Positions 8,506 through 42,843 of a stretch of 42,843 bases of DNA are shown here, in pieces. Each line of letters opens with the position of its first letter. The first letter of the stretch is position 1. Origin of the DNA: a virus. Made by a program: the position numbers and the translations under genes. The stretch lies in the IMG/VR virus record IMGVR_UViG_3300048597_000073, positions 1 through 42,843 of that record; one strand, written 5' to 3'. The notes under the pieces were generated by a model that saw only the letters and a program-made list of their open reading frames with translations, was not told where the DNA came from and did no database searches.

Positions 8506-8781
8506 ATGGCGAAGGGTCAGAAGACCGGCGGCCGCCGAAAGGGCGTGCCGAACCGCGTGACAGCCGACGTCCGGCAGGCGTTCGCGTTGCTGCTGCAGGC
8601 GAAGACGCACGAGCTCGATGGCTGGCTGTCACGCGTCGGCAAAAGCGATCCCGCGCGCGCGCTCGATCTCGTGATCAAGCTCGCGGAGTACCACATCCCG
8701 AAACTGTCGCGGACCGAGATCGCGAACGCGGGGAACCAGGCGTTCGTCGTGCAGATGATTGAGGGCGATGATCGGGTTTGA
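8506..8781 (+). CDS. Small terminase-like DNA-binding protein
   Basis: 91 residues, ATG 8506. The N-terminus KTGGRRKGVPNRVTADVRQA is the GRPKGxPNKxT-type basic motif often found at the start of phage packaging-associated proteins, followed by two helices (about 22-75) and a short tail. Position directly before the large terminase, with a 14-base overlap, suggests the DNA-recognition subunit of the packaging motor. It is shorter than many TerS proteins, so the assignment rests mainly on motif and position. Confidence 0.6.
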   Translation: MAKGQKTGGRRKGVPNRVTADVRQAFALLLQAKTHELDGWLSRVGKSDPARALDLVIKLAEYHIPKLSRTEIANAGNQAFVVQMIEGDDRV

Positions 8782-10099
8782 GCCCACGGCGAAGCAGCGT
8801 GAGGCGCAGCGGCTCATCGGCGGCGGGGCGCCCCACGTCATGCTTTTCGGCGGCAGCCGAAGTGGAAAAACGTTCTGGCTCACGCGCACAATCGCAGGGC
8901 GGGCGATTAAGGCGCCGGGGTCGAGCCACGCGGTCCTGCGGTTCCGGTTCAACCACTGCCGTCAGTCGGTGCTCGAGCAGACCTGGCCGGCGGTCATGTC
9001 GCTGTGCTTCCCGGGCGTCGAGTACGCGCTCGATCGCGAGCTCTGGCGCGCGCGGTTCGCGAACGGTTCTTGCGTCTGGTTCGGCGGGCTCGACGACAAG
9101 GACCGTGTCGAGAAGGTGCTCGGCCAGGAACACGCGACGATCTATCTGAACGAGTGCTCCCAGATCACCTTCGACGCGCGGAACATGGCGATCACCCGTT
9201 TGGCGCAGCGGGTCGACCAGGAAGTGAACGGCCGTCGCTCGCCGCTGCGTACGCGGGTGTTTTACGACTGCAATCCGCCGAACAAGGGCCACTGGACCTA
9301 CAAGCTGTTCGTTGCGAAGCAGGATCCGTTCTCCGGGCGACCGTTGGCGAACCCGGACGACTATGCCGCGATGCGCATGAACCCCGAGGACAACGCTGCG
9401 AACCTGTCGGCCGAGTACCTGGCGACGCTGCGCTCCCTGCCGATGCGGGAGCAGCGCCGCTTCTTGTTCGGCGACTGGGCGGAGGCGAACCCGTCGGCGC
9501 TGTTCTCGGAGTCGGTGCTCGACCGCTGGCGCGTGGTCGCCGAGCCGCTGCCGCAAATGGTTCGCGTGGTCGTCGGCGTGGACCCGTCCGGGTCGGGCGA
9601 CGTCGACAACGCCGACAACGACGAGATCGGGATCGTCGTCTGCGGGCTCGGCACCGACGGTGTCGGGTACGTGCTCGAAGACTGCTCGCTGAAGGCGGGC
9701 CCGCGCACGTGGGGCGGCGTGGCGACGTCGGCCTACGACCGCCACCAGGCGAACTGCATCGTCGGCGAAGCGAACTTCGGCGGGGCGATGGTCGAGCACG
9801 TGATCCAGACCGCGCGGCCGCGCACCCCGTACCGCAAGGTCACTGCCTCACGCGGGAAGGCCGTGCGCGCGGAGCCTATCGCGTCGCTGTGCGAGACCGG
9901 CAAGGTGCGGCTCGCCGGCGAGTTCCGCCAGCTTGAAAGCGAACTGCTCGGGTTCTCGTCCGCCGGCTACATCGGCGAGCGCAGTCCGAACCGGGCTGAC
10001 GCGATGGTCTGGGCGCTGCACGAGCTCTTCCCGTCGCTGGTGAGGCCCGAGCGCACGCGGCCGATCCGCGTCGTCGACGACTGGAAGCCGTTCGGCTAG
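8768..10099 (+). CDS. terL: Terminase large subunit
   Basis: 443 residues from ATG 8768. The ATPase half shows Walker A GGSRSGKT (28-35) and Walker B TIYLNE (124-129, catalytic E129), then the coupling region FYDCNPP. The nuclease half shows the RNase H-like acidic triad: VVVGVDPSG (D272), VGEANFGG (E334) and NRADAMVWAL (D411). Length and motif order are those of the Terminase_6 type. The enzyme translocates DNA into the prohead through the portal and cuts the concatemer. Packaging by cos or pac cannot be decided here. Confidence 0.95.
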   Translation: MIGFEPTAKQREAQRLIGGGAPHVMLFGGSRSGKTFWLTRTIAGRAIKAPGSSHAVLRFRFNHCRQSVLEQTWPAVMSLCFPGVEYALDRELWRARFANGSCVWFGGLDDKDRVEKVLGQEHATIYLNECSQITFDARNMAITRLAQRVDQEVNGRRSPLRTRVFYDCNPPNKGHWTYKLFVAKQDPFSGRPLANPDDYAAMRMNPEDNAANLSAEYLATLRSLPMREQRRFLFGDWAEANPSALFSESVLDRWRVVAEPLPQMVRVVVGVDPSGSGDVDNADNDEIGIVVCGLGTDGVGYVLEDCSLKAGPRTWGGVATSAYDRHQANCIVGEANFGGAMVEHVIQTARPRTPYRKVTASRGKAVRAEPIASLCETGKVRLAGEFRQLESELLGFSSAGYIGERSPNRADAMVWALHELFPSLVRPERTRPIRVVDDWKPFG

Positions 10100-14320: not shown

Positions 14321-15988
14321 ATGCCCGCCCCAACCATCGGCCAAGCATCTGCTCCGCTTGAGAACCCAGGCGGCGGCACGACGATCAGCCGCACGCTGAC
14401 CGGTGTGCAGGCAGGCTCAACGCTTGTACTGCACCTCGGCTACGACTATAGCAGCGGAACCTCCGTCACGTCCGTCGCGGACGGGGGCGGCAACTATACG
14501 CTGCGCGGCAGTGCCGTTGACGACACGCCGAACACCGGACGCTCGCTGGTCTACGTCCGAGAGAACGTCAGCGCGGGCGATTACACGGCGACCGCGACGT
14601 GGAGTGCCGCGACGGGATTCCTGCGCGCGCGCCTGATCGAGATTCGTGGTGCGGCTGCTAGTTCGTTTGAGGCAGCGACCGGACAGTATCAATCCACGCC
14701 GGGTACTGGCACCGATGCGGTCACGTCGGGCAACGTCACGACGCTCGGCACCGACCGGCTAATTCTCGGCCTGTCGCAAAGCTGGGATAACATTTTCGGG
14801 GCCGTGTCGGGAACGATCTCTGCGGGAACGAGCTTCACTATCGGCTCGCCCACGCAGCGCGAGTTTGCGTACCAGAGCCGCTCTGCGCCGTCGGCGGGCA
14901 ATTACGCCGCGACATTCACGTTGTCAGCCGGTAGTGCGCAAAGCACGCACGTCCTCGCATTCAAGCCACTAAGTCCCGCCCCGACTCTCGTTGACAGCCA
15001 GAAGACGGCGTACGACAACAGCGCGACGCCGAAGGCTGTCACTGTTTCGTGGCAGGCCGGCGACATCATCGTCTGGTGCGGGCAGGGCGAGAACTACACC
15101 GGCTCCAACGAAACGCTCACCCCCACGGCAACGGGGCTGACGTTCGCCGAGCAGCAGGTGATCGCGGTCGGCGCTTACGGCTACGTCCGCGTGATGACCG
15201 CCGTAGCCGCAGGCGCTGGCTCGTCGGTCAGCGTCTCTACGGCGGGGACTGGACCATTCAACGGATCGAACTGGTGGGGTGCCGACGTCAAGGTCTGGCG
15301 CAACTCCGGTGGCGTTGGGGCCAGCAGCAAGGCGAACGTCGATGGCGCGGCACCGTCGCTCAACCTGACGACGACGCAGGCGAACAGCGCGATCATCGTC
15401 TACAACAACGACTGGAACGCGGTAGACGGTACGAGCCGGACGTGGCGCACCGGGGCCGGCTCGCTTACCGAGTCGAACTACTTTCGCGACGCAGCGCGCT
15501 GCACGAGTTACAGCGGATACCACGCTGACGCAGGGTCCGTCGGCACGTACGCGGTCGGCCTGTCCGCACCGGGCGGGCAGAAGTACAGCATCGTCGCGAT
15601 TGAGATCAAGGGCAGCGCTGCCGCAGCTCCGACGATTACCAGCCAGCCCGGCAACACGCAGGTTCCCGAGGCAACGCGCGCGGTGTTCGCGACGACCGCG
15701 ACCGCGAGCGGCGGTAGCCTGACCTACCAGTGGCAGGACAACCGCAGCGGCAGCTTCGCGAACATCACGGACGGGATCGGCGCGACCTCGGCGACGTACG
15801 TCACCGACTTCCTCCCGTTGCTCGCGAGCGGGCGACGGTATCGCTGCGTCGTCACGGACGCCAACGGCAGCACCAACACGGGCGAGGCGAGCGTCACCGT
15901 GACGCCGCGCCTGCCGGCCGAGCGCAGGCGGCGCACGCGCGGGGGCGGCGGAACGGACTTCGGCACCGACATCCGCGAGTGGTGGTAG
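14321..15988 (+). CDS. Multidomain beta protein with duplicated module and C-terminal Ig-like domain
   Basis: 555 residues, ATG 14321 shortly after GGGG. Residues 1-220 and 222-430 look like two copies of one jelly-roll-like module: both end in a strand series of the type YAATFTLSAGSAQSTHVLAF and TYAVGLSAPGGQKYSIVAIE. Residues 432-530 form an Ig-like domain (ITSQPGNTQV, LTYQWQD, YRCVVTDANGST). The C-terminus is Arg/Gly-rich. Ig-like domains on phage virions bind cell surfaces weakly. A carbohydrate-binding role is plausible but not shown. Confidence 0.7.
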   Translation: MPAPTIGQASAPLENPGGGTTISRTLTGVQAGSTLVLHLGYDYSSGTSVTSVADGGGNYTLRGSAVDDTPNTGRSLVYVRENVSAGDYTATATWSAATGFLRARLIEIRGAAASSFEAATGQYQSTPGTGTDAVTSGNVTTLGTDRLILGLSQSWDNIFGAVSGTISAGTSFTIGSPTQREFAYQSRSAPSAGNYAATFTLSAGSAQSTHVLAFKPLSPAPTLVDSQKTAYDNSATPKAVTVSWQAGDIIVWCGQGENYTGSNETLTPTATGLTFAEQQVIAVGAYGYVRVMTAVAAGAGSSVSVSTAGTGPFNGSNWWGADVKVWRNSGGVGASSKANVDGAAPSLNLTTTQANSAIIVYNNDWNAVDGTSRTWRTGAGSLTESNYFRDAARCTSYSGYHADAGSVGTYAVGLSAPGGQKYSIVAIEIKGSAAAAPTITSQPGNTQVPEATRAVFATTATASGGSLTYQWQDNRSGSFANITDGIGATSATYVTDFLPLLASGRRYRCVVTDANGSTNTGEASVTVTPRLPAERRRRTRGGGGTDFGTDIREWW

Positions 15989-15991
15989 CCG

Positions 15992-16738
15992 GTGAACCTG
16001 AACACGCAGAAGTGGTTCGATCGTGACCTGCCGTTCGTCACGGCGGGCGCACCCTCTGGCGCGCTGCAGGGGACCGCGACGCTGACGTTCGGGCAGTCCG
16101 GGACGCTGACGGGGGCCGGCGCCCTGGCGGGGACCAACGGGCTGACGTTCGGCCAGAGCGGCAACGCGCGCGGAACGGGTGCGCTCGCGGGCACGAACGG
16201 CCTGACCTTCGGGCAGAGCGGCACCGTCGCCGGGCTCGGCGCGCTGACCGGCGCCAACGGGATCACGTTCGGTCAGGCGGGAACGATGCGCGCGGACGGC
16301 GCGCTGGGCGGGACTGCCGGCGTCACGTTCGGGCAGATCGGCACGCTGAACGCGCCACCGTCCGACATGAGCGGAACCGCGTCGTTCTCGTTCGGCCAGC
16401 TCGGCACGCTGACCGGCGTCGGCGCGCTGTCGGGGACGGCGTCGCTCGTCTTCGGCCAGTCCGGCGCGCTCGGCGGGACCGGTGCGCTGACCGGCACGGC
16501 GTCGGTCGCGTTCGGGCAGTCCGGCAACTCGCGCGGAAGCGGAGATCTCGCAGGCACGGCCAGCGTGACGCTCGACGCATCCGGAACGCTGCAGGCGGCC
16601 GGCGCGCTGTCTGGCGTGGCGTCGCTCACGTTCGGGCAAGCGGGCATCCTGACGCCTCCGGAGGGCGGCGCAACGGCGGTGCAGGCGGGCTCGCTGCTCG
16701 TCGATCCCGGCCGCAACCCGAGTACGCGGTTGCAGTAG
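15992..16738 (+). CDS. 20-residue-repeat protein (GTxxLTFGQSG repeats)
   Basis: 248 residues, GTG 15992 three bases after the previous stop. After about 25 residues the chain consists of nine units with the core ALxGTxxLTFGQSGTLxGxG, mostly exactly 20 residues (60 bp) long; one unit carries a short insertion (NAPPSDMS) and one has lost the FGQ core. Each unit has a short strand and glycine turns, suggesting a beta-solenoid or stacked fibre. The C-terminus is unrelated. It is probably an elongated virion or surface-binding fibre. The stop codon lies inside late element B. Confidence 0.7.
   Translation: MNLNTQKWFDRDLPFVTAGAPSGALQGTATLTFGQSGTLTGAGALAGTNGLTFGQSGNARGTGALAGTNGLTFGQSGTVAGLGALTGANGITFGQAGTMRADGALGGTAGVTFGQIGTLNAPPSDMSGTASFSFGQLGTLTGVGALSGTASLVFGQSGALGGTGALTGTASVAFGQSGNSRGSGDLAGTASVTLDASGTLQAAGALSGVASLTFGQAGILTPPEGGATAVQAGSLLVDPGRNPSTRLQ
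16047..16650 (+). repeat. 60-bp tandem coding repeats
   Basis: About nine diverged copies of a 60-bp unit, most easily seen as GACGTTCGGGCAG or close variants recurring every 60 bases. Copies are diverged at the DNA level, so recent slippage is not the only force acting. Confidence 0.8.
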
Positions 16739-16765: not shown

Positions 16766-18430
16766 ATGGACTCCCGCGCACGCGCTGCCCTCGACCTGCA
16801 CGATCAACTGGAATCCGAGCGGTCGACCCTGAACGGCGTCTATCAGGAGATCGCGAAGCGGGTCGCGCCCGAGTACGCGTCGTTCTACCGCGCGCCGACG
16901 CAGACCGATGCGCAGTACCGCAACACGGAAATCTTCGACCTGACCGGCGCTGTCGCGCTGGAGCGGTTCGGCTCGGCGCTGCACAAGATGACCGCGGACT
17001 CGTCCCGGATCTGGCACACGCTGACCGTGGACGACGAGCAGCTGGCCGACGCGCCGGACGTGAAGGGCTGGCTCGACGAGGCCAACCGGCTGCTGTTCCG
17101 CGAGCGGTACGCGCCGGAATCCAACTTCGCGACGCAGTACCTCGAGAACTGCAAGGCGCTGGGCGCGTTCGGCTGGATGGGCACGCTGATCGAGGACATC
17201 CCCGGCAGCCCCATCCGGTACGCGCCACTGATCCTCGCGTCGACCTACCTGACCACGGACGCATGGGGCCGAGTGAACGGCTGCGTGCGCCGGCTGGAGT
17301 ACACCGCGCCGCAGCTGGCCGAGAAGTTCGGGTATGCGAACCTGCCGCCGCGCGTGCGGGCCGCGGCCGACAGTCCGATGGCCGGGCAGCGTCACCAGAA
17401 GTGGGACTGCGTGCATTCGATCCAGCCGGGCGGCGACCGCTGGCCGGTGCAGTCGGTGTACGCGCTGCGCGAGAACGGCACGCTGCTCGCCGAGGGCGGC
17501 TACCGGGAACTCCCCGTCGCGGCGGCACGGTTCTCGACGATGCCGTTCGAGGTCTACGGCCGCAGCCCGGCGATGCTGGTGCTGCCGTCGCTGAAGATGC
17601 TGAACGAGATGAAGAAGACGTTCCTGCGCGCGGCACAGAAAGCGGTCGACCCGCCGCTGCTGGCGCACGACGACGGCATCCTGTCGGTCATCAACACGGC
17701 GCCCGGCAAGGTCACGACCGGCACGGTCGACGACCAGGGGCGCCCGCTGCTCATTCCGCTGTCGACCGGCGCGAAACTCGACTGGGCGCAGCAGGCGATG
17801 GACGACGAGCGGCAGCCGGTCAACGACGTGTTCCTCGTAAGCCTGTTCCAGATCCTCGCCGACGAGCAGCGCCAGCAGACCGCGCGCGAGGTGATCGAGC
17901 GGGCCGCCGAGAAGGCCGCGCTACTGGCCCCCGCGACCGAGCGGCTGCAGTCGGAGTACCACGGCCCGATGATCCGACGCGAGCTCGCGATCCACATCGA
18001 GGCGGGTCGCATCCCGGTCCCGCCGGACGCACTCGCCGAGTATTTCGCCGAACGCGGCGGCACGGCGCTGTCCGTGAGGTTCGAAGGTGAGATGGCCCGC
18101 GCACGGCGCGCGGACGATGCCGGCGCGATCCTTCGGCTGGCCGAGACGGCACCCGCGATCAGCGCGCTTGACCCGACCGCCCCTCGCCGCGTGAAGTGGG
18201 GAGACGCGTTCGGCAAGCTCGCCGAGTTCCTGGGCGTCGAGCAGTCGCTCATTCGCTCGGACGACGAGATGGCCGACCTCGAGGCCGAAGACCAGGCGAT
18301 GCAGCAGGCCGCGCTGCTCGCGGAAGGCGTGCCGGCGGCGGCCAGTGCCGCGAAGGACTTCGCGACGGCTGAGGCTACGCGGGCTCAGACCGTGGCCGCG
18401 CAGGCTGCACCTGGCGGGGCGCTGTTCTGA
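16766..18430 (+). CDS. Portal (head-to-tail connector) protein
   Basis: 554 residues, ATG 16766. It has the layout of T7-type podovirus connectors: LDLHDQLESERSTLNGVYQE at the start, then IAKRVAPEY, an EIFDLTGAVALERFGSALHK segment, a central beta region, and a long helical part containing KTFLRAAQKAVDPPLL and the stem/crown helices near AREVIERAAEKAALL. T7 gp8 has a similar length (about 536). Twelve copies would form the ring through which terminase packages DNA and to which tail tubular protein A binds. Late element B lies directly upstream. Confidence 0.92.
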   Translation: MDSRARAALDLHDQLESERSTLNGVYQEIAKRVAPEYASFYRAPTQTDAQYRNTEIFDLTGAVALERFGSALHKMTADSSRIWHTLTVDDEQLADAPDVKGWLDEANRLLFRERYAPESNFATQYLENCKALGAFGWMGTLIEDIPGSPIRYAPLILASTYLTTDAWGRVNGCVRRLEYTAPQLAEKFGYANLPPRVRAAADSPMAGQRHQKWDCVHSIQPGGDRWPVQSVYALRENGTLLAEGGYRELPVAAARFSTMPFEVYGRSPAMLVLPSLKMLNEMKKTFLRAAQKAVDPPLLAHDDGILSVINTAPGKVTTGTVDDQGRPLLIPLSTGAKLDWAQQAMDDERQPVNDVFLVSLFQILADEQRQQTAREVIERAAEKAALLAPATERLQSEYHGPMIRRELAIHIEAGRIPVPPDALAEYFAERGGTALSVRFEGEMARARRADDAGAILRLAETAPAISALDPTAPRRVKWGDAFGKLAEFLGVEQSLIRSDDEMADLEAEDQAMQQAALLAEGVPAAASAAKDFATAEATRAQTVAAQAAPGGALF

Positions 18431-19822: not shown

Positions 19823-20725
19823 ATGTCCACCGTCATCGAAACCCACTACGTCCCGACGTTCAAGAACAACGTCGAGCTGCTCGCGCAGCAGACGCAGTCG
19901 ATCCTCGAGCCGTTCGTCGAGACGCAGCCCTGCGAGGGGCTCGCCGCGGCGGTCCGCGACCAGTACGGCAGCGTCACGGCGCGCCGCAAGGTCGAGCGCC
20001 ACGAAGACACCAAGTACAGCGACACGCCGCGGGCGCGCCGCTGGCTGTCGCCGATCGAGTTCTACACGTCGGAACTCTACGACGAGTCCGACCTGATGCG
20101 GATGCTGACCGATCCGCAGTCGCCGCTCGTCCGCGCGCACGTCGCCGCGATGAATCGCGCCAAGGACTCGGTGATCCTGCAGGCGTTCTTCGCCGCCGCA
20201 CCCATCGGCGAGCAGTTCACGGCCGGCGCGACCGTCGCCTACGACACGAACAACGACATCGCCACCGACGTCGACCTGCCCGGCACGCCGAGCGGCCTGA
20301 CGCCGTTCAAGCTCATCAAGGGCACGGGCCGCCTGATGCGCAACCAGGTGGACACGTCCGCCGAGAAGCCGACCTGCGTCATCAACACGAAGGCGTGGGA
20401 GGACATGTTCGGCCAGGCGCAGTACATCAGCAGCGACTTCAACAGCGGCAAGCCGCTGACGAGCGCGCCGCGCGCGATCGATTACGGCGGCTTCAACCTC
20501 GTGCAGATCGAGCACGCCGACTTCCCGGTTAACGGCACGACCGACTGGCAGCTGCCGGCGTTCGTGAAGTCCGGCGTCGTGTTGGGCAAGTGGATGGAGC
20601 GCAAGGTCGAGGTGCAGCGCCTGCCGAACAAGGTGTCTTCGTGGGAAGTGAAGGTGCGCGAGAGCTTCGCCGCCGTTCGCGTCGAAGAGGCCAAGGTCGC
20701 GCGCATCCGCATCAAGTTCAGCTGA
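19823..20725 (+). CDS. Major capsid protein
   Basis: 300 residues, ATG 19823 with GGAGCAAGGA upstream. It follows the scaffold gene and has the length and alternation of an HK97-fold coat protein: an N-terminal helix (NNVELLAQQTQSILEPFVET), SVTARRKVERHEDTKY, a helix with SDLMRMLTDPQSPLVRAHVA, and a C-terminal strand series (KVSSWEVKVRESFAAVRVEE). Phages of this type use about 415 copies on a T=7 shell. It forms one unit with the next gene, bounded by a terminator on each side. Confidence 0.88.
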   Translation: MSTVIETHYVPTFKNNVELLAQQTQSILEPFVETQPCEGLAAAVRDQYGSVTARRKVERHEDTKYSDTPRARRWLSPIEFYTSELYDESDLMRMLTDPQSPLVRAHVAAMNRAKDSVILQAFFAAAPIGEQFTAGATVAYDTNNDIATDVDLPGTPSGLTPFKLIKGTGRLMRNQVDTSAEKPTCVINTKAWEDMFGQAQYISSDFNSGKPLTSAPRAIDYGGFNLVQIEHADFPVNGTTDWQLPAFVKSGVVLGKWMERKVEVQRLPNKVSSWEVKVRESFAAVRVEEAKVARIRIKFS

Positions 20726-20748: not shown

Positions 20749-21156
20749 ATGCCAGCCTTTTACCCGATCGAAGCCGGTCAGGTTGCCTCGCCGACGCGTC
20801 CCGTCGACCACGGCAACATCCGGCAGAAGTCCGTCATTCGGCGCACGTGGAACCTCGCGTCGCGCACGACCTCGGACACGTTCGAAGGTCTCACGCTGCC
20901 GCGCAATACGCGGCCGACGCGCGTCTCGCTGTTCCCGTCCGTGTCCCTCGGTTCGTCGACCATCGCGGTCGGCATCCAGGGCACGGCCGGCAAGTACCGT
21001 GCGGCGGCGACGGTCACGACCAACGTCGAGGCGGTGGTCGTGGCGCTCGGCGCTCCGGTGCTGGCGGCCGACGAGCCGGTGGTGCTGACCATCGGCGCGG
21101 CGACGCTGCCCGCGTCCGGCACGCTGACGTGTGAGTTCGAAGTCACGTACGAGTAA
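20749..21156 (+). CDS. Small beta-rich head or decoration protein
   Basis: 135 residues, ATG 20749 with an excellent ribosome site (AGGAGAAAG), as expected for an abundant virion protein. After an N-terminal extended arm, alternating strands follow (TRVSLFPSVSLGSSTIAVGI, then ATVTTNVEAVVVALG and GTLTCEFEVTYE). It follows the capsid gene and is followed by a terminator, so it is probably a decoration protein. Function is inferred from position and sequence character only. Confidence 0.65.
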   Translation: MPAFYPIEAGQVASPTRPVDHGNIRQKSVIRRTWNLASRTTSDTFEGLTLPRNTRPTRVSLFPSVSLGSSTIAVGIQGTAGKYRAAATVTTNVEAVVVALGAPVLAADEPVVLTIGAATLPASGTLTCEFEVTYE

Positions 21157-21233: not shown

Positions 21234-22919
21234 ATGCCGACAGCCCTGAAGGTGAAGACACTGGTTCGCTACCCTGGAACCGGCGCTCCTTGGTCGAGCA
21301 AGCTTCCGGGGGCGTCCGTCATCAGTCTTGCGGCGCGGCGCTACGATGGCGCAAGCGGTGCGACCACCGTCAACGGCGGTATTCCGCTGCAACCGGGCCA
21401 ACTCACGGCCGCGCAGCTTGGCAACGTTTCCATCGTCGAGGGCAGTACGGAGCGGCCGATCCGCGTCACGGCGCTGCAGGGCACGCACCCGGACGGGTCG
21501 CTTCGGGCGATCCAGGTACAGACCGACCTGACGTTTGCGACGAGCAGCGAGGCAAAGACGCTGACGCTGCGGCTGACGGTGCCGCCGACCGCCGGCACGG
21601 CCACGGCCACCACGATCAACTACGCGTGGATGCGGCAGCCGCGGCTGCTGTACTGCACCGACTCGGCGCATATGTGCCGCTCGCGCGTGTTCCCGCTGCC
21701 GCTGATCCCGATCGACGACCCGGCGGTTCCGTCGAGTTGGTACACGTTCCTGACGACGGACATGGATGCGCTGTACGAAGCCACGTATACGCGGACGCTC
21801 GCGGGCAACAACGCAGGGGCGGAATACGATCACCCGTATGAAATGGCCTGTGCGTTCGTCTCACAGGTATCGGCGCGACCGACTGCGGCGGTGCAGTACC
21901 TTCGCAGGGCGCTGGCGCACTACCTGAACGATTCGGCCGGGGTCACGGCGGCCGATGGACTCAGTTCTCAGGTCGGAACAAACGTCTACCTGTCTTTCGA
22001 GCGATTCGTTCCGTACTGCATTCCGCAGAGCGGCTCCTGGACTGGCTTCGACGACAACCCGGAAGGGCTGACGCGCAGCGCGACGGATCGTTCTGGCGCG
22101 GGCGCCGAATGGGCCTGTCGCTTGCTGTCGAGCGTCGCGATCTACTACCTGACCGGCTGGCAGCAGGCGCAGCTGCATACGCGCTACGCGGGCGGGTGGG
22201 CGTGGCGCGAATTGTCGGCGTTCTCCGCAACGATGGCGGCGAGCAGCGGCACGGCGCGCGACATGGTGAGGCGTCGCGGGCTGGGCGCGCAGGTTCATCA
22301 CTATCTGCAGAACCCCGCCTCGAGCTACCTGTTCGCACCGAACCCGCCTGCCTGGGACGCGTCCAACTTCATGACGCCGGTCAATGCGTGGCGCAACGGC
22401 GCCGACGCGCTTGCCGCCGTGGCCCCGGCACCGCTGACTGGAGTGTTCGGTGCGGCGAACGCAACCAACAACCCGGTGCAGCCGGTGTTCCAGTTCGCGA
22501 CCGTGGCCCCGTACCTTCTCTATCAGGCCTACCACATGGGCGTGTCGTCGACCGTCGTGGGCGATCGCATCAAGAGCGTCGCCGACTTCGTGCAGGCAAT
22601 CTGCGGTGCGCCGGTCTACAAGGCGGTGAGCAACTGGGACGTCTACGTTTCGCCGTACGACGCGTTCGGCGACAGCGACCAGATCATCGATCTTCAGATG
22701 ATGCAGACGCTGAACATGGCTTACACGTTCGCCTATACGGGGAACACGAGCTATCGCGACTGGGTTGACCGCGTCGCGACCGCCAAGCATTCACTGGAGC
22801 CGGGCGGCGCAGCCTATCAGACGATGGGCGGCTTCAAGCTGTGGGGGGAGCAGTTCCTGAATGCTCACCACGCGCTCGCGTACCGCAGCGGCGTCGCACA
22901 TAGCGGGTGGTGGAACTGA
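21234..22919 (+). CDS. Putative polysaccharide-active enzyme (RIFT-barrel plus alpha/alpha-toroid-like)
   Basis: 561 residues, ATG 21234 with GAGAGGGA upstream. Residues 15-125 have the pattern of N-terminal RIFT-barrel domains of PcRGLX/YetA-like proteins: GGIPLQPGQLTAAQLGNVSI, then RPIRVTALQ and HPDGSLRAIQVQ. The remainder is largely helical with Trp/Tyr/His-rich loops (ERFVPYCIPQSGSW, YLTGWQQAQLHTRYAGGWAW), like alpha/alpha-toroid lyases or hydrolases. No catalytic residue can be fixed by eye. Placed between capsid and tail genes, it may be a tail-associated depolymerase acting on capsule or exopolysaccharide. Moderate confidence in fold, low in substrate. Confidence 0.55.
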   Translation: MPTALKVKTLVRYPGTGAPWSSKLPGASVISLAARRYDGASGATTVNGGIPLQPGQLTAAQLGNVSIVEGSTERPIRVTALQGTHPDGSLRAIQVQTDLTFATSSEAKTLTLRLTVPPTAGTATATTINYAWMRQPRLLYCTDSAHMCRSRVFPLPLIPIDDPAVPSSWYTFLTTDMDALYEATYTRTLAGNNAGAEYDHPYEMACAFVSQVSARPTAAVQYLRRALAHYLNDSAGVTAADGLSSQVGTNVYLSFERFVPYCIPQSGSWTGFDDNPEGLTRSATDRSGAGAEWACRLLSSVAIYYLTGWQQAQLHTRYAGGWAWRELSAFSATMAASSGTARDMVRRRGLGAQVHHYLQNPASSYLFAPNPPAWDASNFMTPVNAWRNGADALAAVAPAPLTGVFGAANATNNPVQPVFQFATVAPYLLYQAYHMGVSSTVVGDRIKSVADFVQAICGAPVYKAVSNWDVYVSPYDAFGDSDQIIDLQMMQTLNMAYTFAYTGNTSYRDWVDRVATAKHSLEPGGAAYQTMGGFKLWGEQFLNAHHALAYRSGVAHSGWWN

Positions 22920-25516
22920 TGCCGACGCCAATCACGCCTGTTGCGCTGACGGTAGGCTCGCTCGAGACGTGGGTGACGGTCGACGTTTCCGCTCACGTGC
23001 CGTCGGGTACGACCGGCGTGATGATCCGCGTCCGCAACGACACGGGCAACGGCGCGATCGGCTATCGCAAGACCGGATCGACCGACACGTTCACGACGAA
23101 CTCGCTCGCCGGACGAACCGGGTTCATCTGCGTCGGCGTCGATGGCAGTCGACGAGTCGATCTTTACAAGCAGTACACTAATTTCTCGTTCGATCTGATC
23201 GGGCACTTCGGTGCGGAGGCCGTGTTCTTCACGAACGCGGTCAGCAAGGGTCCGTACAACTCGTCGTCTACCTGGACCGACGTAGACATCTCGGGCGACA
23301 CGGGCGGGGACACGGCCGTCGCCGCCATCGTGGCCATCGATTACGGGCAGACGCGGGGCGCCCGAAAGAACGGCAGCACCGATCCGCCGCGCCTCACGGA
23401 CGAAAGCGCCGGGACGCTCATCGTCGGGTGCGATGGGTCCGAGGTCTTCGAGATCCAGACCGAGGGCAACGGCGTCAACCAGCGCGTGCTCGGCTATCTG
23501 AAGTCCGCCGTGACGATGCACACGGACGCCATCGACCGGTCACTTGGGTCGACCGGGGTATTTACCGACCTCGCTGCGCTGCCAGCTGGCGCGGTCATGG
23601 GGATCTACTCGGTATTCGGCGCTGGCAATGCTGCCCTGCGCAAGAACGGCGCGAGCGAGGACTACAGCGGGAACGGGCTCGGCGACTGTCACGCCATCGT
23701 GGAGTGCGACGGTTCGCGGCTTGTTGAGGGGCGGATCGCGTCGACTGGAACCGACTTCTACGAACTCGGGTACTTCACGACGGCGGCAGCGCTCCCCTCG
23801 CTGACGGATGTCGACAGCGACGAGATCCTGACCAGTGCGCAGTCCGGTGCGACGTTCACCGGCAGCAATCTCGGTGCGACCACGGGCGATAGGACCGTGG
23901 CGCTGGTGCAGGGCTCGACGGTCGTCACGCAGACGCAGACCGGCGGCAATTCGACCTCGGGAACCTTCAACGTCACGGGGTTCGGCGCGGGTGGGCTGCT
24001 GCGCTATGGGACGGCAACGACGCTGCGCGTGACCGTGGGCAGCGACGTTGCCAACTTCTCGCTGGCTTCCGTCAGTGGACAGACTGCGCCTATCACCCCG
24101 CCTGCCGGGCGCGCGTGGGTCACGTTCGGCTCGCTCGAGACGACGGCCGCATATCGACTGGAAGGCGATCCGGGCGACATCGCGCCGGGGCATCAGCTCG
24201 AGTACGACACGGCCGGCGGCACCCTGACCGTCAACAGCAATGGCACCGTCAGCGGCACGAGCGGAAGCACGACGAGTATCGTCGGCCGCATACAGGACGG
24301 GTCGGGATGGTCGGCCGACGTCACCGTGCCGATTACCGGCGGCGATGTCCCGGTCATTGGCACGCAGCCATCAGCGCAGACCGTTCTGCGCGGCGCGACC
24401 GCGACGTTCTCGGTTTCCGCGAGCGGATCTGCGCCGCTGAGCTACCAGTGGCGCAAGAACGGTGCCGCTATTGGCGGCGCGACGGCGGCGACGTATACGA
24501 CTCCGGCAACCACCGATTTCGACAACGGCGCGCTGTACTCGGTGGTCGTGACGAATTCGCTCGGCGTCGTGACATCGTCCGCTGCCCTGCTGACGGTCAA
24601 CGTCGCTCCTGCGATTACCACGCAGCCGGCCAATGTGTCGGTGGCGTCCGGGCAGGCGGCGACCTTCTCGGTCGTCGCAACGGGGCGGCCTTCCCCCGCG
24701 TTCCAGTGGCGTCGAGACGGCGTCGACATCGCCGGAGCGACCAACGCGACCTACACCACGCCGCTGCTGTCACTGAGCGATTCAGGCGCACAGTTCACGG
24801 TCGTGCTGTCGAGTTCGGTTGGTAACGTAACGTCGAGCGCGGCCGTGCTGACTGTAACGGCGGTGACCGCGCCGGTACAGCCGCCGGTTCCAGGCGCGAT
24901 CCTGCCGCTCGAGCGAGTGTCGAAGGTCGCGATCGCCAATCAGGCGCTCACGAAGCTCGGCGTGTCGCTGATCGAGTCGTTCACCGAGGACTCGAAGGCC
25001 GCGCGCACGATGGCGGCGATCTACGATCGCATCCGCGACGCGGAACTGTCGCGCCGCTGGTGGAACTTCGCGAAGGCGCGCAAGCGGATGCCGGAGGCGA
25101 TCAACGACGAGCCGACCGGGCCGTTCCGCTACAGCTACGCGCTGCCGGCGGACTGGTTGACGACGATCTACGTCGGCAACCTGCCGCTGTCGATGACGCT
25201 CACCGACCTGCAGACCTACGATCCGGGCGACTGGTCGCACGAGGGCGCGTACATCCTGACGAACACGGCGCCCCCGGCGGACCTGTTCTACGTTCGGCGC
25301 ATCACCGACCCGACCCGCTACCACGCGCTGTTCGTCGAGGCGCTCGCCTGCCGACTGGCGATGGAAGCCGCCGACGCGCTGACGAACTCTCTCACGCGCT
25401 GGGAGAAGTGCGCGGCCGAGTACAAGGACGCGATCAAGGAAGCGCGCCGGGCGAACGCGATCCAGAACCCGCCGCAGAGCCTGCAGGACGGTAGCTGGCT
25501 CGGCTCGAGGCACTGA
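22919..25516 (+). CDS. Tail tubular protein A with a giant N-terminal adhesin-like extension
   Basis: 865 residues; ATG 22919 overlaps the previous stop (TGATG). Residues 1-290 contain three tandem ~95-residue beta modules, each ending in a VGxDGSR-type strand and then IGHF, LGYL or LGYF. Residues 290-475 include an IPT/TIG-like region. Two Ig-like domains follow (about 478-565 and 566-650: IGTQPSAQTV...YQWRKNG and ITTQPANVSV...FQWRRDG). Residues 664-865 are a full-length T7 gp11-type tail adaptor (SKVAIANQALTKLG, RRWWNFAKARKRMPE, FRYSYALPADW). T7 gp11 is only about 196 residues. An in-frame GTG at 24917 could start a free adaptor of 199 residues. The adaptor joins portal and tail in 12 copies. 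Confidence 0.85.
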   Translation: MPTPITPVALTVGSLETWVTVDVSAHVPSGTTGVMIRVRNDTGNGAIGYRKTGSTDTFTTNSLAGRTGFICVGVDGSRRVDLYKQYTNFSFDLIGHFGAEAVFFTNAVSKGPYNSSSTWTDVDISGDTGGDTAVAAIVAIDYGQTRGARKNGSTDPPRLTDESAGTLIVGCDGSEVFEIQTEGNGVNQRVLGYLKSAVTMHTDAIDRSLGSTGVFTDLAALPAGAVMGIYSVFGAGNAALRKNGASEDYSGNGLGDCHAIVECDGSRLVEGRIASTGTDFYELGYFTTAAALPSLTDVDSDEILTSAQSGATFTGSNLGATTGDRTVALVQGSTVVTQTQTGGNSTSGTFNVTGFGAGGLLRYGTATTLRVTVGSDVANFSLASVSGQTAPITPPAGRAWVTFGSLETTAAYRLEGDPGDIAPGHQLEYDTAGGTLTVNSNGTVSGTSGSTTSIVGRIQDGSGWSADVTVPITGGDVPVIGTQPSAQTVLRGATATFSVSASGSAPLSYQWRKNGAAIGGATAATYTTPATTDFDNGALYSVVVTNSLGVVTSSAALLTVNVAPAITTQPANVSVASGQAATFSVVATGRPSPAFQWRRDGVDIAGATNATYTTPLLSLSDSGAQFTVVLSSSVGNVTSSAAVLTVTAVTAPVQPPVPGAILPLERVSKVAIANQALTKLGVSLIESFTEDSKAARTMAAIYDRIRDAELSRRWWNFAKARKRMPEAINDEPTGPFRYSYALPADWLTTIYVGNLPLSMTLTDLQTYDPGDWSHEGAYILTNTAPPADLFYVRRITDPTRYHALFVEALACRLAMEAADALTNSLTRWEKCAAEYKDAIKEARRANAIQNPPQSLQDGSWLGSRH

Positions 25517-27756
25517 TGCCGCGCGCGCATTCCCTGCGCAGTCAGTTCAACGGCGGCGAGCTGTCGCCGCTGCTGATGGGGCGCACCGACCTCGCGCGGT
25601 ACGGCAGCGGTTGCCGCGTGCTGTTCAACATGCTGCCGACCGTGCAGGGTCCGGCCCGGCGCCGCGGCGGCACGCGCTACGTCGGGGCCGTGAAGGACGG
25701 CGCCAGCCGGACGTGGACGGCGCGCTTCGAGTTTTCGCGGACGCAGGCGTACGTTCTGGAGTTCTCGCCCGGCTGGGTACGGTTCTTCACGAGCCGCGCG
25801 CAGCTCGTCAGCGGCGGCAGCGCGTACGAGGTGGCGACCCCGTACACGGCTGGCGACCTGACCAACGCCGACGGCGCGTTCGGGCTGCGCATGGTGCAGT
25901 CCGGCGACGTGCTGTACATCGCCTGCGCCGGCAAGCCGCCGAAGAAGCTGTCGCGACTCGGGGCGACCAACTGGACGCTGACCGACTACGTGCCGAAGAA
26001 CGGGCCGTTCCAGGACGAGAACCCGACCAAGACGCTGCGGCTGTACGCGAGCGCGCGCACCGGCAGCGTGACCGTCACGGCGTCGGCGTCCTACTTCACG
26101 GCCGCGATGGTCGGGCACCTGATCCGGCTGGACGTCGAGAGCTTCGACATCCCGCCGTGGGAGCCCGGCAAGGCGTACGCGGCCGACTTGCTGGTGCGCT
26201 CGGACGGCAAGACCTACAAGGCACTGAACGCCAACGGCACGCGCAAGTCGGGGTCGAAGACGCCGATTCACGAAGAGGGCACCGCGTTCGACGGCAGCGG
26301 CACGGTCGACGATCCGCCGGTCGCGGCGGGCATCGAGTGGGAGTTCCAGGACCCCGGCTACGGCGTCGGCACGATCACGGCCTACACCAGCGGCACCGTG
26401 GCCACGGTCGCCGTCGGCACCGACACGCCGCTCCCGGCCGGCGTGGTTGGCAGTGGCAACGCGACGAACGCGTGGCGGCTGGGTGCCTGGGGCACGGCCG
26501 GCGAGTACCCGGCGCACGTGTTCTTCTGGAACAACCGGCTCGGCTGGGCGGGCCGGCGCCGATTCTGGCTGTCGGTGCCGTCGGACTACGAGAACCACGC
26601 GCCGGACATCGTCGGCCAGGTGCGCGACGACGCGGCGATCAACCGCGCGATCGAGAGCCCGGAGGCGAACGCGATCACGTGGGCGCACGGCGGCGAGGTG
26701 CTGCTGATCGGCACCGAGGGTTCGGAGTTCATCGTCCGCAAGGGCACGGAGACGGAGCCGCTCGGCCCGGCGAACCTACAGGCCTATGAAAAATCGACCT
26801 ACGGCTCGCGCGCGGTGCGGCCGGTGCGCGCGGCGCAGGGCGTGCTGATCGTGCAGAAGTCCGGTCGGCGGGTCCGCGAGGTGCGCTACGACAACGACAG
26901 CGGCACCTACGAGGCGCCGGACCTGACGACGCTCGCGCGGCGGCTGCCGGCGTCGGGCGTGATCGACTGGGCGTGGCAGCAGGAGCCGGACCGCATCCTG
27001 TGGCTCGTGATGGGAGACGGGCAGCTGTGGGGCCTGACGCTGGACCGCGAGCAGGAGGTGATCGCGTGGCACCGGCACGACGTCGGCGGGTTCGTGGAGG
27101 CCGTGCAGACGATCCCGGCGCCGGACGGCTCGCGTGACGACCTCTGGCTGATCGTGCGCCGCACGGTCGGCGGGGCGACGGTGCGCTACGTCGAGTTCAT
27201 GGAGGCCGGGCTGGACGAGGGCGGCGCGCAGGCGGATGCGTTCTTCGTCGACTCGGGCCTGACGTACAACGGCGCACCGGCCACGACGATCAGCGGGCTC
27301 TCTCACCTGAACGGCCAGACGGTCGCGGTGCTGGCGGACGGCGGCGTCCACCGGCCGCTGACGGTCGCGAACGGGCAGATCGTGCTCGACGCCGCGGCCA
27401 GCCGTGTGCAGGCCGGGCTCGGGTTCCGGTCGATCGTCTCGCCAATGCCGCTCGACGACGGCGCGGCCCGCGGCACGGCGCAGGGGAAGACGAAGCGCGT
27501 GTCGCAGATCGACGTGCGGGTCTACGAGAGCCTCGGGTTCCGGGTGGGGCCGTCACTGTCCAAGCTGCGTCCGATCAAGGCACGCGATGCATCGGTGGGG
27601 CTCGGGAACGCGCCGCCACTGTTCACCGGCGACCTCGCGATCGACTTCGACGGCGATTGGGGGCCGGACGCGCCGATGTACTTCGTGCAGGACGACCCGT
27701 TCCCGATGACGCTGCTGGCGCTGATGCCGGAGGTCGTCACGAATGAACGTGGCTGA
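25516..27756 (+). CDS. Tail tubular protein B (nozzle)
   Basis: 746 residues; the ATG at 25516 shares its A with the previous TGA. The N-terminus SQFNGGELSPLLMGRTDLARYG and VQGPARRRGGTRYVG are characteristic of T7 gp12-type nozzle proteins. The propeller-like body contains FFWNNRLGWAGRRRFWLSVP, SDYENHA and YGSRAVRPVRAAQGVLIVQK. Length is close to T7 gp12 (794). Six copies would form the nozzle below the adaptor, to which the fibre attaches. The 3' end overlaps the next gene by 14 bases. Confidence 0.92.
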   Translation: MPRAHSLRSQFNGGELSPLLMGRTDLARYGSGCRVLFNMLPTVQGPARRRGGTRYVGAVKDGASRTWTARFEFSRTQAYVLEFSPGWVRFFTSRAQLVSGGSAYEVATPYTAGDLTNADGAFGLRMVQSGDVLYIACAGKPPKKLSRLGATNWTLTDYVPKNGPFQDENPTKTLRLYASARTGSVTVTASASYFTAAMVGHLIRLDVESFDIPPWEPGKAYAADLLVRSDGKTYKALNANGTRKSGSKTPIHEEGTAFDGSGTVDDPPVAAGIEWEFQDPGYGVGTITAYTSGTVATVAVGTDTPLPAGVVGSGNATNAWRLGAWGTAGEYPAHVFFWNNRLGWAGRRRFWLSVPSDYENHAPDIVGQVRDDAAINRAIESPEANAITWAHGGEVLLIGTEGSEFIVRKGTETEPLGPANLQAYEKSTYGSRAVRPVRAAQGVLIVQKSGRRVREVRYDNDSGTYEAPDLTTLARRLPASGVIDWAWQQEPDRILWLVMGDGQLWGLTLDREQEVIAWHRHDVGGFVEAVQTIPAPDGSRDDLWLIVRRTVGGATVRYVEFMEAGLDEGGAQADAFFVDSGLTYNGAPATTISGLSHLNGQTVAVLADGGVHRPLTVANGQIVLDAAASRVQAGLGFRSIVSPMPLDDGAARGTAQGKTKRVSQIDVRVYESLGFRVGPSLSKLRPIKARDASVGLGNAPPLFTGDLAIDFDGDWGPDAPMYFVQDDPFPMTLLALMPEVVTNERG

Positions 27757-28171
27757 ACTGCGGGCCGAGCACCTCGACCGCCTCAGCGTGCAGCCGTCAC
27801 AGGCGTGGGCGCTGCCGCTGCTGCGCGGACCAGGCTACGTCGATTCGCTGCTCGCGGACGGCGATGCGTGGGTGGTCGAGCACGGCGAGCGTGTGGTCGC
27901 GGCTGGCGGGATCGTGCGTTTGCACGCGCAGCACGGCGAGGCGTGGACGCTGATCGCGCCCGACGCCGGCCCGCACATGCGGCGGATTCACAGGCTGGCG
28001 TGCGAGGTGCTGGACGGCTGCCCGTTGCGGCGGGTGCAGGCGTACGCGGACCCCGAGTTCCGGCCGGCGCAGCGGTGGCTGCGGATGCTCGGGTTCGAAC
28101 TCGAGGGGTACTGCGCGGCGATCACGCCGCAGGGCCGGGACATGCTGCTATTCGCGAGGATCAGGACGTGA
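27743..28171 (+). CDS. GNAT-like protein in the gp13 position
   Basis: 142 residues, ATG 27743 within the end of the nozzle gene. The core strand pair and helix (WVVEHGERVVAAGGIVRLHA, then RIHRLACEVLDGCPLRRVQA) and the following RWLRMLGFELEGY resemble the C-terminal part of GNAT acyltransferases; the usual acetyl-CoA loop is not clear. T7-type phages have a protein of about 138 residues at this place that acts in assembly of the internal core. It could be a structural derivative of the GNAT fold rather than an enzyme. Confidence 0.65.
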   Translation: MNVAELRAEHLDRLSVQPSQAWALPLLRGPGYVDSLLADGDAWVVEHGERVVAAGGIVRLHAQHGEAWTLIAPDAGPHMRRIHRLACEVLDGCPLRRVQAYADPEFRPAQRWLRMLGFELEGYCAAITPQGRDMLLFARIRT

Positions 28172-34995: not shown

Positions 34996-37014
34996 ATGAC
35001 CGTCCCCAGCACGCAGAGCCGAATTCAGTACACCGGCGACGGTGTGTCGACGCAGTTCGACTTCCCGTTCGCGTTCCAGAAGAACGCCGATATTCGGGTA
35101 CTGCGTATTTCGGCGACCGGCGTTACGACGACGCTCGTCGAGGGCTCGGACTACGCGCTCGCATCGGTGTCCGGCGGCGGGCGGGTGACGCTCGGGGTCG
35201 CGCTGCCGACCGGCGCCAAGCTGACGATCTTCCGCGACCCGGAACTCGTGCAGGAAACCGATCTTCGCGAGAACGATCGCTTCTTCGCCGAGACGCTGGA
35301 GCAGGGGCTGGACCGGCTGACGCAGATCAGTCAGGCGCTCGCCGTGCGGCAGGAGCTCGCGCTGACGCTGCACGAGGCCGAGGTCGGCCCGAATACCGAG
35401 ATCCCCGACGTCGCGACCCGCGCCAACAAGGTGCTGGGCTTCGACGCGGCTGGCAACCTGGTCGTGGTCGAAGCCTCGACCGGCTCCGGCGGCGGGGGCG
35501 GCACGCCGGGGACGCCGGGCGTACCGGGGCAGAGCGCCGTGGCCGTGGTGCTGTCGCGGCCGAGTGTCACGGTGCCGGCCGATGCGTCGGGCGTGGTGTC
35601 GGACTTCTCGCAGGCGACCGGCAACGTCCTCGTGACGCAGGGCGCCGTGAGCGTGACGACGCTGTCGGCGTTCTCCGTGATCCAGCAGACCAACTGCACC
35701 GGCACGGTGGACGCGAACGGCGTCTACGCGGTGACCGCGTTGTCCGCCGATACCGGCGCGCTCGGCATCCGGGTCACGTACGCGTCCGTCACCTACGACG
35801 TGTTCTTCACGCTGACGAAGTCGCGGGCCGGCTCGCAGGGGCCGGCCGGATCTGGCACGGGGGCGCTGGCGATCATCCTGTCGCGCGACTCCGCACCGTT
35901 GCCCGCGTTCGCCGACGGCTCGGTGCCGAGCTACGCCGGCATCAACGCGCTGGCCCGGTTCTACGACGGCCCGACCGAAGTCACGGCGACGACAACGTGG
36001 TCGATCGCGTCGACGGCGAACTGCACGGCCACGATCAACACCGCGACGAACACGCCGGTGAACGGCCAGCCGCGCGGCTACTTCGAAGTGACGGCGGTCA
36101 CCGCGGATGTCGCGACCGTCACCGTGCAGGGCGTCTACTCCGGCAACACGCTGCAGCGCACGTTCCAGGTCTACAAGATCAAGGGCGGCTACGAGATCGT
36201 CGCGGCGCTCCCGGCGACGAACCTGTTCGCCGGGCGGCTGGTGTACCTGACGACCGACGCGAAGCTGTACCGGTACACGGGCAGCGCGTGGTCGAAGGCG
36301 GTCGACGGCGGCGACGTGCTTGCCGGCACTGTCACGACGAACGCGCTCGCCGCGGGGGCGGTCACGGCCGCGATCATCAACGTGACGCAGCTGTCCGCGA
36401 TCGCCGCGAACCTCGGCACCGTCACGGCCGGGCTCATCCGCGACGCCGCGAGCCGCACGCGCTTCGACGTGACGGCCGGGACGCTGATCTTCAACAACGG
36501 CACGCACATGCTCGCGTTCGGGCCGGGGTTTGGCACGAGCGGCCAGTTCTACCTGTGGGGCGGCCCGACGCAGGCCAGCCTGAGCACGTGTTCCGAAGCG
36601 AACGCGGTCATCTACATGAAGCTCGACGGCACGGTGGGTGCGCGCCTCGTCGTGCTCGCCGGCTCGACGCTGCCCTCGCCTGCGCCGTTCTCGGCCGGAC
36701 CCGCGGAAGGTGCGATCTCGTCGGTGGGCGGCAACGGCGGGCGGGTCTACGCCACGCGCACCGCGCTCATCAGCGGCGGTCGCGCGCCGTACACGATCAT
36801 CTGGTCGATCGGGAATCTCAAGCAGGACATCGAGCCGCCGCTGGCGGGACGGTCGATCAACCTGACGAACCCGACGAGTTCGGTCGTCACCGTGTCCGGC
36901 GTCTGCACCAACGGAATCCTGTACGGGGACCTGGTGCTGACCGTCACCGACGCCGACGGACGAGTGGCGCAGGGCTACGCGCCGATCACTGCACAGCACG
37001 GCGTCCCGCCGTAA
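34996..37014 (+). CDS. Tail fibre with T7-type N-terminus
   Basis: 672 residues, ATG 34996, no ribosome site between element D and the ATG. Residues 1-150 match the T7 gp17 attachment domain: TQSRIQYTGDGVSTQFDFPF, YALASVSGGGRVTL, ETDLRENDRFFAETLEQGLD and LALTLHEAEV. A short collagen-like stretch (GTPGTPGVPG) follows at about 169-178, then beta-rich repeats with VTVPADASGVVSD-type Ig-like segments. The C-terminal half resembles host-specificity modules (TNALAAGAVTAAIINVTQLS, NNGTHMLAFGPG). Trimers would attach at the adaptor-nozzle joint and bind the receptor. Confidence 0.88.
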   Translation: MTVPSTQSRIQYTGDGVSTQFDFPFAFQKNADIRVLRISATGVTTTLVEGSDYALASVSGGGRVTLGVALPTGAKLTIFRDPELVQETDLRENDRFFAETLEQGLDRLTQISQALAVRQELALTLHEAEVGPNTEIPDVATRANKVLGFDAAGNLVVVEASTGSGGGGGTPGTPGVPGQSAVAVVLSRPSVTVPADASGVVSDFSQATGNVLVTQGAVSVTTLSAFSVIQQTNCTGTVDANGVYAVTALSADTGALGIRVTYASVTYDVFFTLTKSRAGSQGPAGSGTGALAIILSRDSAPLPAFADGSVPSYAGINALARFYDGPTEVTATTTWSIASTANCTATINTATNTPVNGQPRGYFEVTAVTADVATVTVQGVYSGNTLQRTFQVYKIKGGYEIVAALPATNLFAGRLVYLTTDAKLYRYTGSAWSKAVDGGDVLAGTVTTNALAAGAVTAAIINVTQLSAIAANLGTVTAGLIRDAASRTRFDVTAGTLIFNNGTHMLAFGPGFGTSGQFYLWGGPTQASLSTCSEANAVIYMKLDGTVGARLVVLAGSTLPSPAPFSAGPAEGAISSVGGNGGRVYATRTALISGGRAPYTIIWSIGNLKQDIEPPLAGRSINLTNPTSSVVTVSGVCTNGILYGDLVLTVTDADGRVAQGYAPITAQHGVPP

Positions 37015-42665: not shown

Positions 42666-42843
42666 AGCAGCCGCTCCACGCGCTCGACCCGCCAGCAGTC
42701 CCGCGACCGGTCGCGGAACGACGTTGCTTTCAGGCGCCGGAACGCGGCCTCGATCGCGGCGTCGTCGTCGTCCGCGTTCACGTCGACCTTCCCGTCGTAC
42801 TGCGCGTACGGGCCGGGCGTTGAGCGCATCCACACGCGCCAGC
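42662..42843 (-). CDS. Small phage protein across the circle junction (nearly complete copy)
   Basis: Continuation of the gene described at 1-134: because of the end duplication this copy holds all but the first seven bases, and it ends with TGA at 42664-42662. The C-terminus reads RDRSRDCWRVERVERLL and its stop overlaps the NinB GTG. The full product has 64 residues. Confidence 0.6.
   Translation of the reverse strand, partial: WRVWMRSTPGPYAQYDGKVDVNADDDDAAIEAAFRRLKATSFRDRSRDCWRVERVERLL
42717..42843. repeat. Right copy of 127-bp terminal duplication
   Basis: Identical to bases 1-127; marks a circular sequence. One copy should be removed, leaving 42,716 bp. Confidence 0.95.

Follow-up and report, generated by a model that had tools for sequence, protein, structure and literature searches.

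Podophages are usually taken to recognise their hosts by fibres or spikes docked at the groove between the adaptor and the nozzle. The locus described here raises the question of what a T7 gp11-type tail adaptor (tail tubular protein A, TTPA) does at the end of an 865-aa protein whose remaining part is built of beta and Ig-like domains. The window, that is, the whole stretch of DNA analysed, is a 42,843-base virus record with 70% GC; its ends carry an exact 127-base direct repeat, so that the genome is very probably complete. The gene plan is that of the BcepC6B/BPP-1/epsilon15-like podophages, with the order terminase, portal, scaffold-like gene, capsid, small virion protein, 561-aa protein, fusion, nozzle, internal virion proteins and tail fibre (Table 1).

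Table 1 Positions of the features in the window and the evidence for each; residue numbers refer to the fusion protein unless another protein or model is named.
Feature	Position	Strand	Evidence or remark
Exact terminal direct repeat, 127 bases	1-127 and 42717-42843		
Terminase	8759-10099		
Portal	16766-18430	+	phrog_332, Pfam Head-tail_con
Major capsid protein	19823-20725	+	phrog_3437, Pfam Phage_capsid_2
135-aa virion protein	20749-21156	+	weak phrog_486; between capsid gene and putatively inserted segment
561-aa upstream protein	21234-22919	+	no family match
N-terminal 27-residue peptide of the 561-aa protein	21234-21314	+	shared with the equivalent L001 gene
865-aa fusion, N-terminal multidomain beta extension and C-terminal tail adaptor	22919-25516	+	
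Beta module 1 (N-terminal triple)	22919-23230	+	repeat alignment, module HMM, AF2
Beta module 2	23231-23512	+	repeat alignment, module HMM, AF2
Beta module 3	23513-23791	+	module HMM, AF2
IPT/TIG-like first half of core, residues 291-393	23789-24097	+	78% identity to L001 over 288-479
'AWVTF' Big_9-like second half of core, residues 394-477	24098-24349	+	A5 alignment, shuffles
Ig-like domain 1	24350-24607	+	Pfam Ig_2/Ig_3/I-set
Ig-like domain 2	24608-24868	+	Pfam Ig_3 564-622, I-set 564-639
Pro-rich linker, residues about 650-663	24869-24913	+	AF2 pLDDT <50 at model residues 175-188
In-frame GTG, proposed internal start	24917-24919	+	no support
T7 gp11-type adaptor domain (TTPA), last 199 residues (667-865)	24917-25513	+	
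Tail nozzle (T7 gp12-type)	25516-27756	+	phrog_376 E 1e-204, Pfam Phage_nozzle
Separate tail fibre	34996-37014	+	phrog_1640, residues 1-123; T7-like tail-binding N-terminus

Several other genes of the window are of interest in their own right. Upstream of the portal gene, the 555-aa product of 14321-15988 contains beta modules and shows weak Ig similarity (phrog_3995, E 2e-10); it may be a second adhesin or decoration protein. The 248-aa product of 15992-16738 consists of near-identical repeats with the pattern LTFGQSGTLxGxGALxGT. Between terminase and portal, the 453-aa product of 11627-12988 matches phrog_863 (tail fibre assembly). A small protein encoded just after the nozzle gene (27743-28171) matches phrog_4177 and also phrog_308, an internal virion protein family; the gene at the equivalent position is annotated as an acetyltransferase in several relatives.

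The fusion frame opens with an ATG that overlaps the TGA of the upstream gene, runs for 865 codons without an internal stop to the stop codon at 25514-25516, and shares the last base of that stop with the ATG of the nozzle gene directly downstream. The unbroken frame with a C-terminal adaptor that the earlier note had described is, thus, correct in its coordinates, its frame and the fusion itself; neither a stop nor a frameshift lies between extension and adaptor, and the third-position GC is high throughout (0.79-0.93 across all parts of the frame). The adaptor domain matched phrog_394 'tail protein' (E 1e-45, positions 3-189 of 190), is 42% identical to BcepC6B gp11, and gave profile matches to the solved Carin-1 connector (8ck1) and LME-1 adaptor (9efk). 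Its AlphaFold2 (AF2) model (pLDDT about 95) shows a helix bundle and the fibre-dock fold, and Foldseek retrieved 8ck1 (E 9e-12) and T7 gp11 (7box, E 2e-6), the nearest solved folds also including 9efk, PhiM1, cyanophages, T7 gp11 (6r21) and KP32 TTPA (5mu4). A search with Pfam 'Tube' (PF17212) gave no match in the window, and none in its 14 control genomes either. Profile and predicted fold together identify the domain as an adaptor and bear out the claim that the last ~200 residues are a complete tail tubular protein A. At 865 aa, the fusion is unlike stand-alone adaptors, for which a length of about 190-220 aa is typical but not essential. The TTPA is present in a single copy, directly before the nozzle gene; since no other adaptor gene exists in this genome, which ends in 127-bp terminal repeats, virions should carry the fusion unless it is processed. 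As for the masses that had been given, the short form of ~22 kDa agrees with the computed 22.5 kDa, but the full-length protein comes to 89.7 kDa and not to ~86 kDa.

The arm ahead of the adaptor comprises about 660-669 residues, and repeats and Pfam matches delimit it as had been drawn: three beta modules of ~95 residues, an IPT/Big-like core and two Ig-like domains, to which a Pro-rich linker is added. A full-length alignment, in which the beta modules were wrongly placed on the adaptor, was discarded in favour of two partial models. The triple module (residues 1-291) was modelled as all-beta (pLDDT about 90), while the model of the core (about residues 288-479) is of low confidence and the Pfam Big_9 match of its second half (E 0.009) falls below the cut-off. 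The Ig pair occupies residues about 480-650, and the linker that follows is predicted to be disordered. Foldseek found no confident PDB match for the triple module and only three borderline viral matches. Used as a single-sequence query, the three modules of the window had no relative in the scan; the repeat alignment, however, did find relatives, the unit forming the N-terminus of eight other viral proteins (L179-L186), which are diverse phage proteins. The unit is without a Pfam family, and its copies occur mostly in threes (e.g., L181, 3959-4990). One carrier, L179, has weak baseplate-hub similarity, and in L186 the triple module is followed by a Gly-rich repeat tail resembling the repeats of 15992-16738.

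A search for other phages with such a fusion, as the earlier note had suggested, led to two further viral genomes, L003 and L119, with different caps and linkers. Searching the frames of all fetched loci with the adaptor profile yielded 176 matches, some of which represent the same virus twice. N-terminal extensions of more than 110 residues occurred in three viruses only, namely the window, L003/L095 (774 residues) and L119 (488 residues), whereas those of the other TTPA loci measured 0-107 residues, nearly all having none. At the upper end of that range, the adaptor of L154 (5074-5998) has a 107-residue extension and is possibly an intermediate form. The adaptors of L003 and L119 are 73% and 46% identical, and none of the three fusions was covered to 80% by a record among 50,697 phage genomes. 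A quick tree built from 141 nozzle proteins grouped all three fused phages with the unfused L017 in one clade (99% SH-aLRT). Since this clade holds three fused phages and one unfused phage, the fusion arose once or twice; on the sequences compared, the trait would need two changes, either one gain with a loss in L017 or two gains. The order in L017 is capsid gene, 168-aa gene, small ORF and a 201-aa adaptor, with neither the large upstream gene nor the extension. Because L017 is without both, the segment between the small virion protein and the adaptor looks like an insertion site.

Among the fused phages, the arm is modular. The L003 arm combines a LamG-like cap (a label that is a reading of the sequence rather than a profile match) with IPT-like domains, a Big-like core and a set of three FN3-type domains matched by Pfam fn3 and RGI_lyase; in L119, IPT-like and Big-like domains are accompanied by two of the He_PIG type. 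Pro/Gly-rich linkers are present in both. The Big-like core is common to the window, L003, L119 and a siphophage-like contig, L001, whose downstream gene matches the tail family phrog_2048. In the A5 alignment, the Big-like half of the window is 79% identical to that of L001 and 35/28% identical to those of the other two, and none of 500 shuffles reached the score of either the window-L003 or the window-L119 comparison. The IPT half is only weakly similar to that of the window (9/500 shuffles reached the score for L119 and 24/500 for L003), while L003 and L119 resemble each other in this half (0/500). As the domain content differs around a shared Big-like core, caps and linkers have been exchanged while core and adaptor were kept.

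L001 carries two adjacent genes corresponding, in the same order as in the window, to the 21234 gene and the arm. Of the first gene, only the first ~23-27 residues are alike (61% over 23, E 2e-4), and the remainder scores as shuffled sequence does. Of the second, only the ~190-residue core is alike (78%); the caps are at best weakly similar (19/300 shuffles) and the C-terminal parts are unrelated. The cores of the window and L001 differ at 31/22/91 first, second and third codon positions, and this third-position excess shows protein-level selection. The viral_contigs scans, both for the core and for the peptide, confirmed L001 as the sole relative. Since only these two elements are retained in L001, it is suggested that peptide and core act together, most simply by mutual binding. 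Such docking, possible on the strength of this one genome pair, may be portable between podophages and siphophages.

Before a role is considered, two readings that concern the protein itself have to be weighed. An assembly chimera or a missed frameshift joining two genes is extremely improbable: L003 and L119 are independent contigs with the same type of junction, and the codon-position signature, with high third-position GC through the whole frame, also rules it out. Another reading is that the gene makes two products, the full-length protein and a 22-kDa adaptor started at an in-frame GTG, so that only some ring positions bear arms. The GTG exists as the earlier note had stated and lies near the usual start of ordinary adaptors (alignment A1), but is the 26th in the series of start-type codons in this frame, and in-frame GTGs are common in a 70% GC genome. 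Its Shine-Dalgarno (SD) pairing is -1.8 kcal/mol (rank 134/200 among background internal starts of the same genome), as against -5.8 to -10.2 kcal/mol for most real starts nearby, the portal start also being weak; the equivalent position holds GTC in L003 and no start codon in L119. Because of the weak pairing and the non-conservation, the idea of dual forms was not accepted, and we regard it as very unlikely.

The arm, then, has to be accounted for as part of the adaptor, and we consider it probable that it forms an adsorption collar at the neck, possibly also holding a spike. This reading is favoured because carbohydrate-binding modules at the neck of lactococcal 936 phages bind host cells (PMC6669499) and the Ig-like modules of other phages are considered to have an accessory part in adsorption (PMC13320782). 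T7 adaptors form a dodecamer that sits on the portal clip and contacts the nozzle through the loop linking helices 1 and 2 (alpha1-alpha2) (PMC6702177); since this loop faces the nozzle, the adaptor N-terminus should face the portal side. By analogy with the T7-type structure, the C-terminal 199 residues would form a 12-fold ring between portal and nozzle, like T7 gp11, with the collar facing outwards. The computed volume of 12 arms is about 1.05 million cubic angstroms, as against about 0.09 million for a channel 40 angstroms wide and 70 angstroms long; because they need about twelve times the channel volume, the arms must be outside the channel. The 660-residue arm would leave the ring on its outside through the flexible Pro-rich linker, giving a neck collar of up to 12 flexible arms, each made of two Ig domains, the IPT/Big core and the triple beta-module cap. 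With seven beta domains in a row, an arm might reach a few hundred angstroms, a length comparable to the tail. Its most likely job would be adsorption by multivalent, low-affinity binding to host-surface glycans; as a possible second job, it may hold the spike-like 21234 protein by its N-terminal peptide. Both host binding and spike docking by the arm are functions that we infer. Since an ordinary tail fibre is also encoded (34996-37014), the arm would not be the sole adhesin.

Other roles for the arm can be set against the adsorption collar. It may mainly carry the 21234 protein, the core binding the 27-residue peptide so that the spike hangs from the neck. That the L001 pair shares only peptide and core with the window, and is the only confirmed relative of both, speaks for this; it is, however, a single pair, adjacent pieces can move together without binding, and L003 and L119 have the core but, in the loci searched, no such peptide upstream. 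Moreover, PHROG and Pfam profile searches found no enzyme family for the 21234 product, which, from its position, is a possible spike- or enzyme-like partner. We therefore hold this reading to be possible but doubtful. Alternatively, the arms might lie folded back against the capsid vertex and, in the manner of head decoration proteins, strengthen the joint between head and neck; the PHROG matches of the Ig pair do include Hoc-like head decoration. An extension that varies between 488 and 774 residues and in domain content among relatives, and is absent from the sister phage L017, makes this unlikely. It is quite unlikely, too, that the arm is removed during assembly and absent from the finished virion: it could be cleaved off at the disordered linker, but no protease was recognised among the proteins searched, and the variable domain content is more in keeping with surface exposure than with a conserved role in assembly. 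A broader proposal, in which the adaptor of this podophage clade is a 12-fold modular receptor-binding platform with swappable caps and a core docking an exchangeable spike, the cassette being shared with a siphophage, goes further than the adsorption collar and appears rather unlikely. Because the ring protein itself carries the arm, an adsorption collar would give all virions a fixed set of up to 12 neck modules; the arm also gives a way into the question of how podophages acquire and exchange accessory host-binding parts.

No description of an adaptor-fused Ig or adhesin arm was found in the literature searched. To call this a new position for host-binding modules, as the earlier note did, goes too far, since the neck modules of 936 phages (PMC6669499) and the adaptor Ig domains of the Vibrio phages VP2, VP5 and phiVC8 precede it. 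In the 936 phages, host-binding modules sit at the neck, as proposed here, but they belong to a separate trimeric fibre protein of siphophages, whereas in the window they lie on the adaptor itself. The 'tail tubular protein' of VP2/VP5/phiVC8 (VP2p14, 741 aa, phrog_9239) is likewise an adaptor fused in frame to Ig-like domains; part of VP2p14 also matches phrog_863. Its adaptor is N-terminal, however, with the Ig and Gly-rich parts in a 551-residue C-terminal extension (L004, 9329-11554), so that the order is reversed and the modules differ, and VP2 is ruled out as an identical precedent because there the adaptor is extended at its opposite end. These Ig-decorated adaptors belong to cultured phages and are thus within reach of structural work. 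The T3 minor capsid protein, Peru-2 P2_50 and Hoc carry Ig-like virion modules thought to be weak surface binders (PMC13320782), but on the capsid and not on the tail adaptor. The adaptors of T7 (gp11), KP32, Carin-1 and LME-1 (phrog_394) resemble that of the window in profile, predicted fold and gene order before the nozzle, yet have about 190-220 residues and no N-terminal extension. BcepC6B, BPP-1 and epsilon15 share the plan of portal, scaffold-like gene, capsid, small virion protein, adaptor and nozzle; in these phages, however, the adaptor is not fused, and capsid/cement and adaptor are not separated by a large gene. Compared with these systems, what appears to be new, on the papers searched, is an N-terminal, module-swapping adaptor arm in one small clade of uncultured podophages, a rare arrangement.
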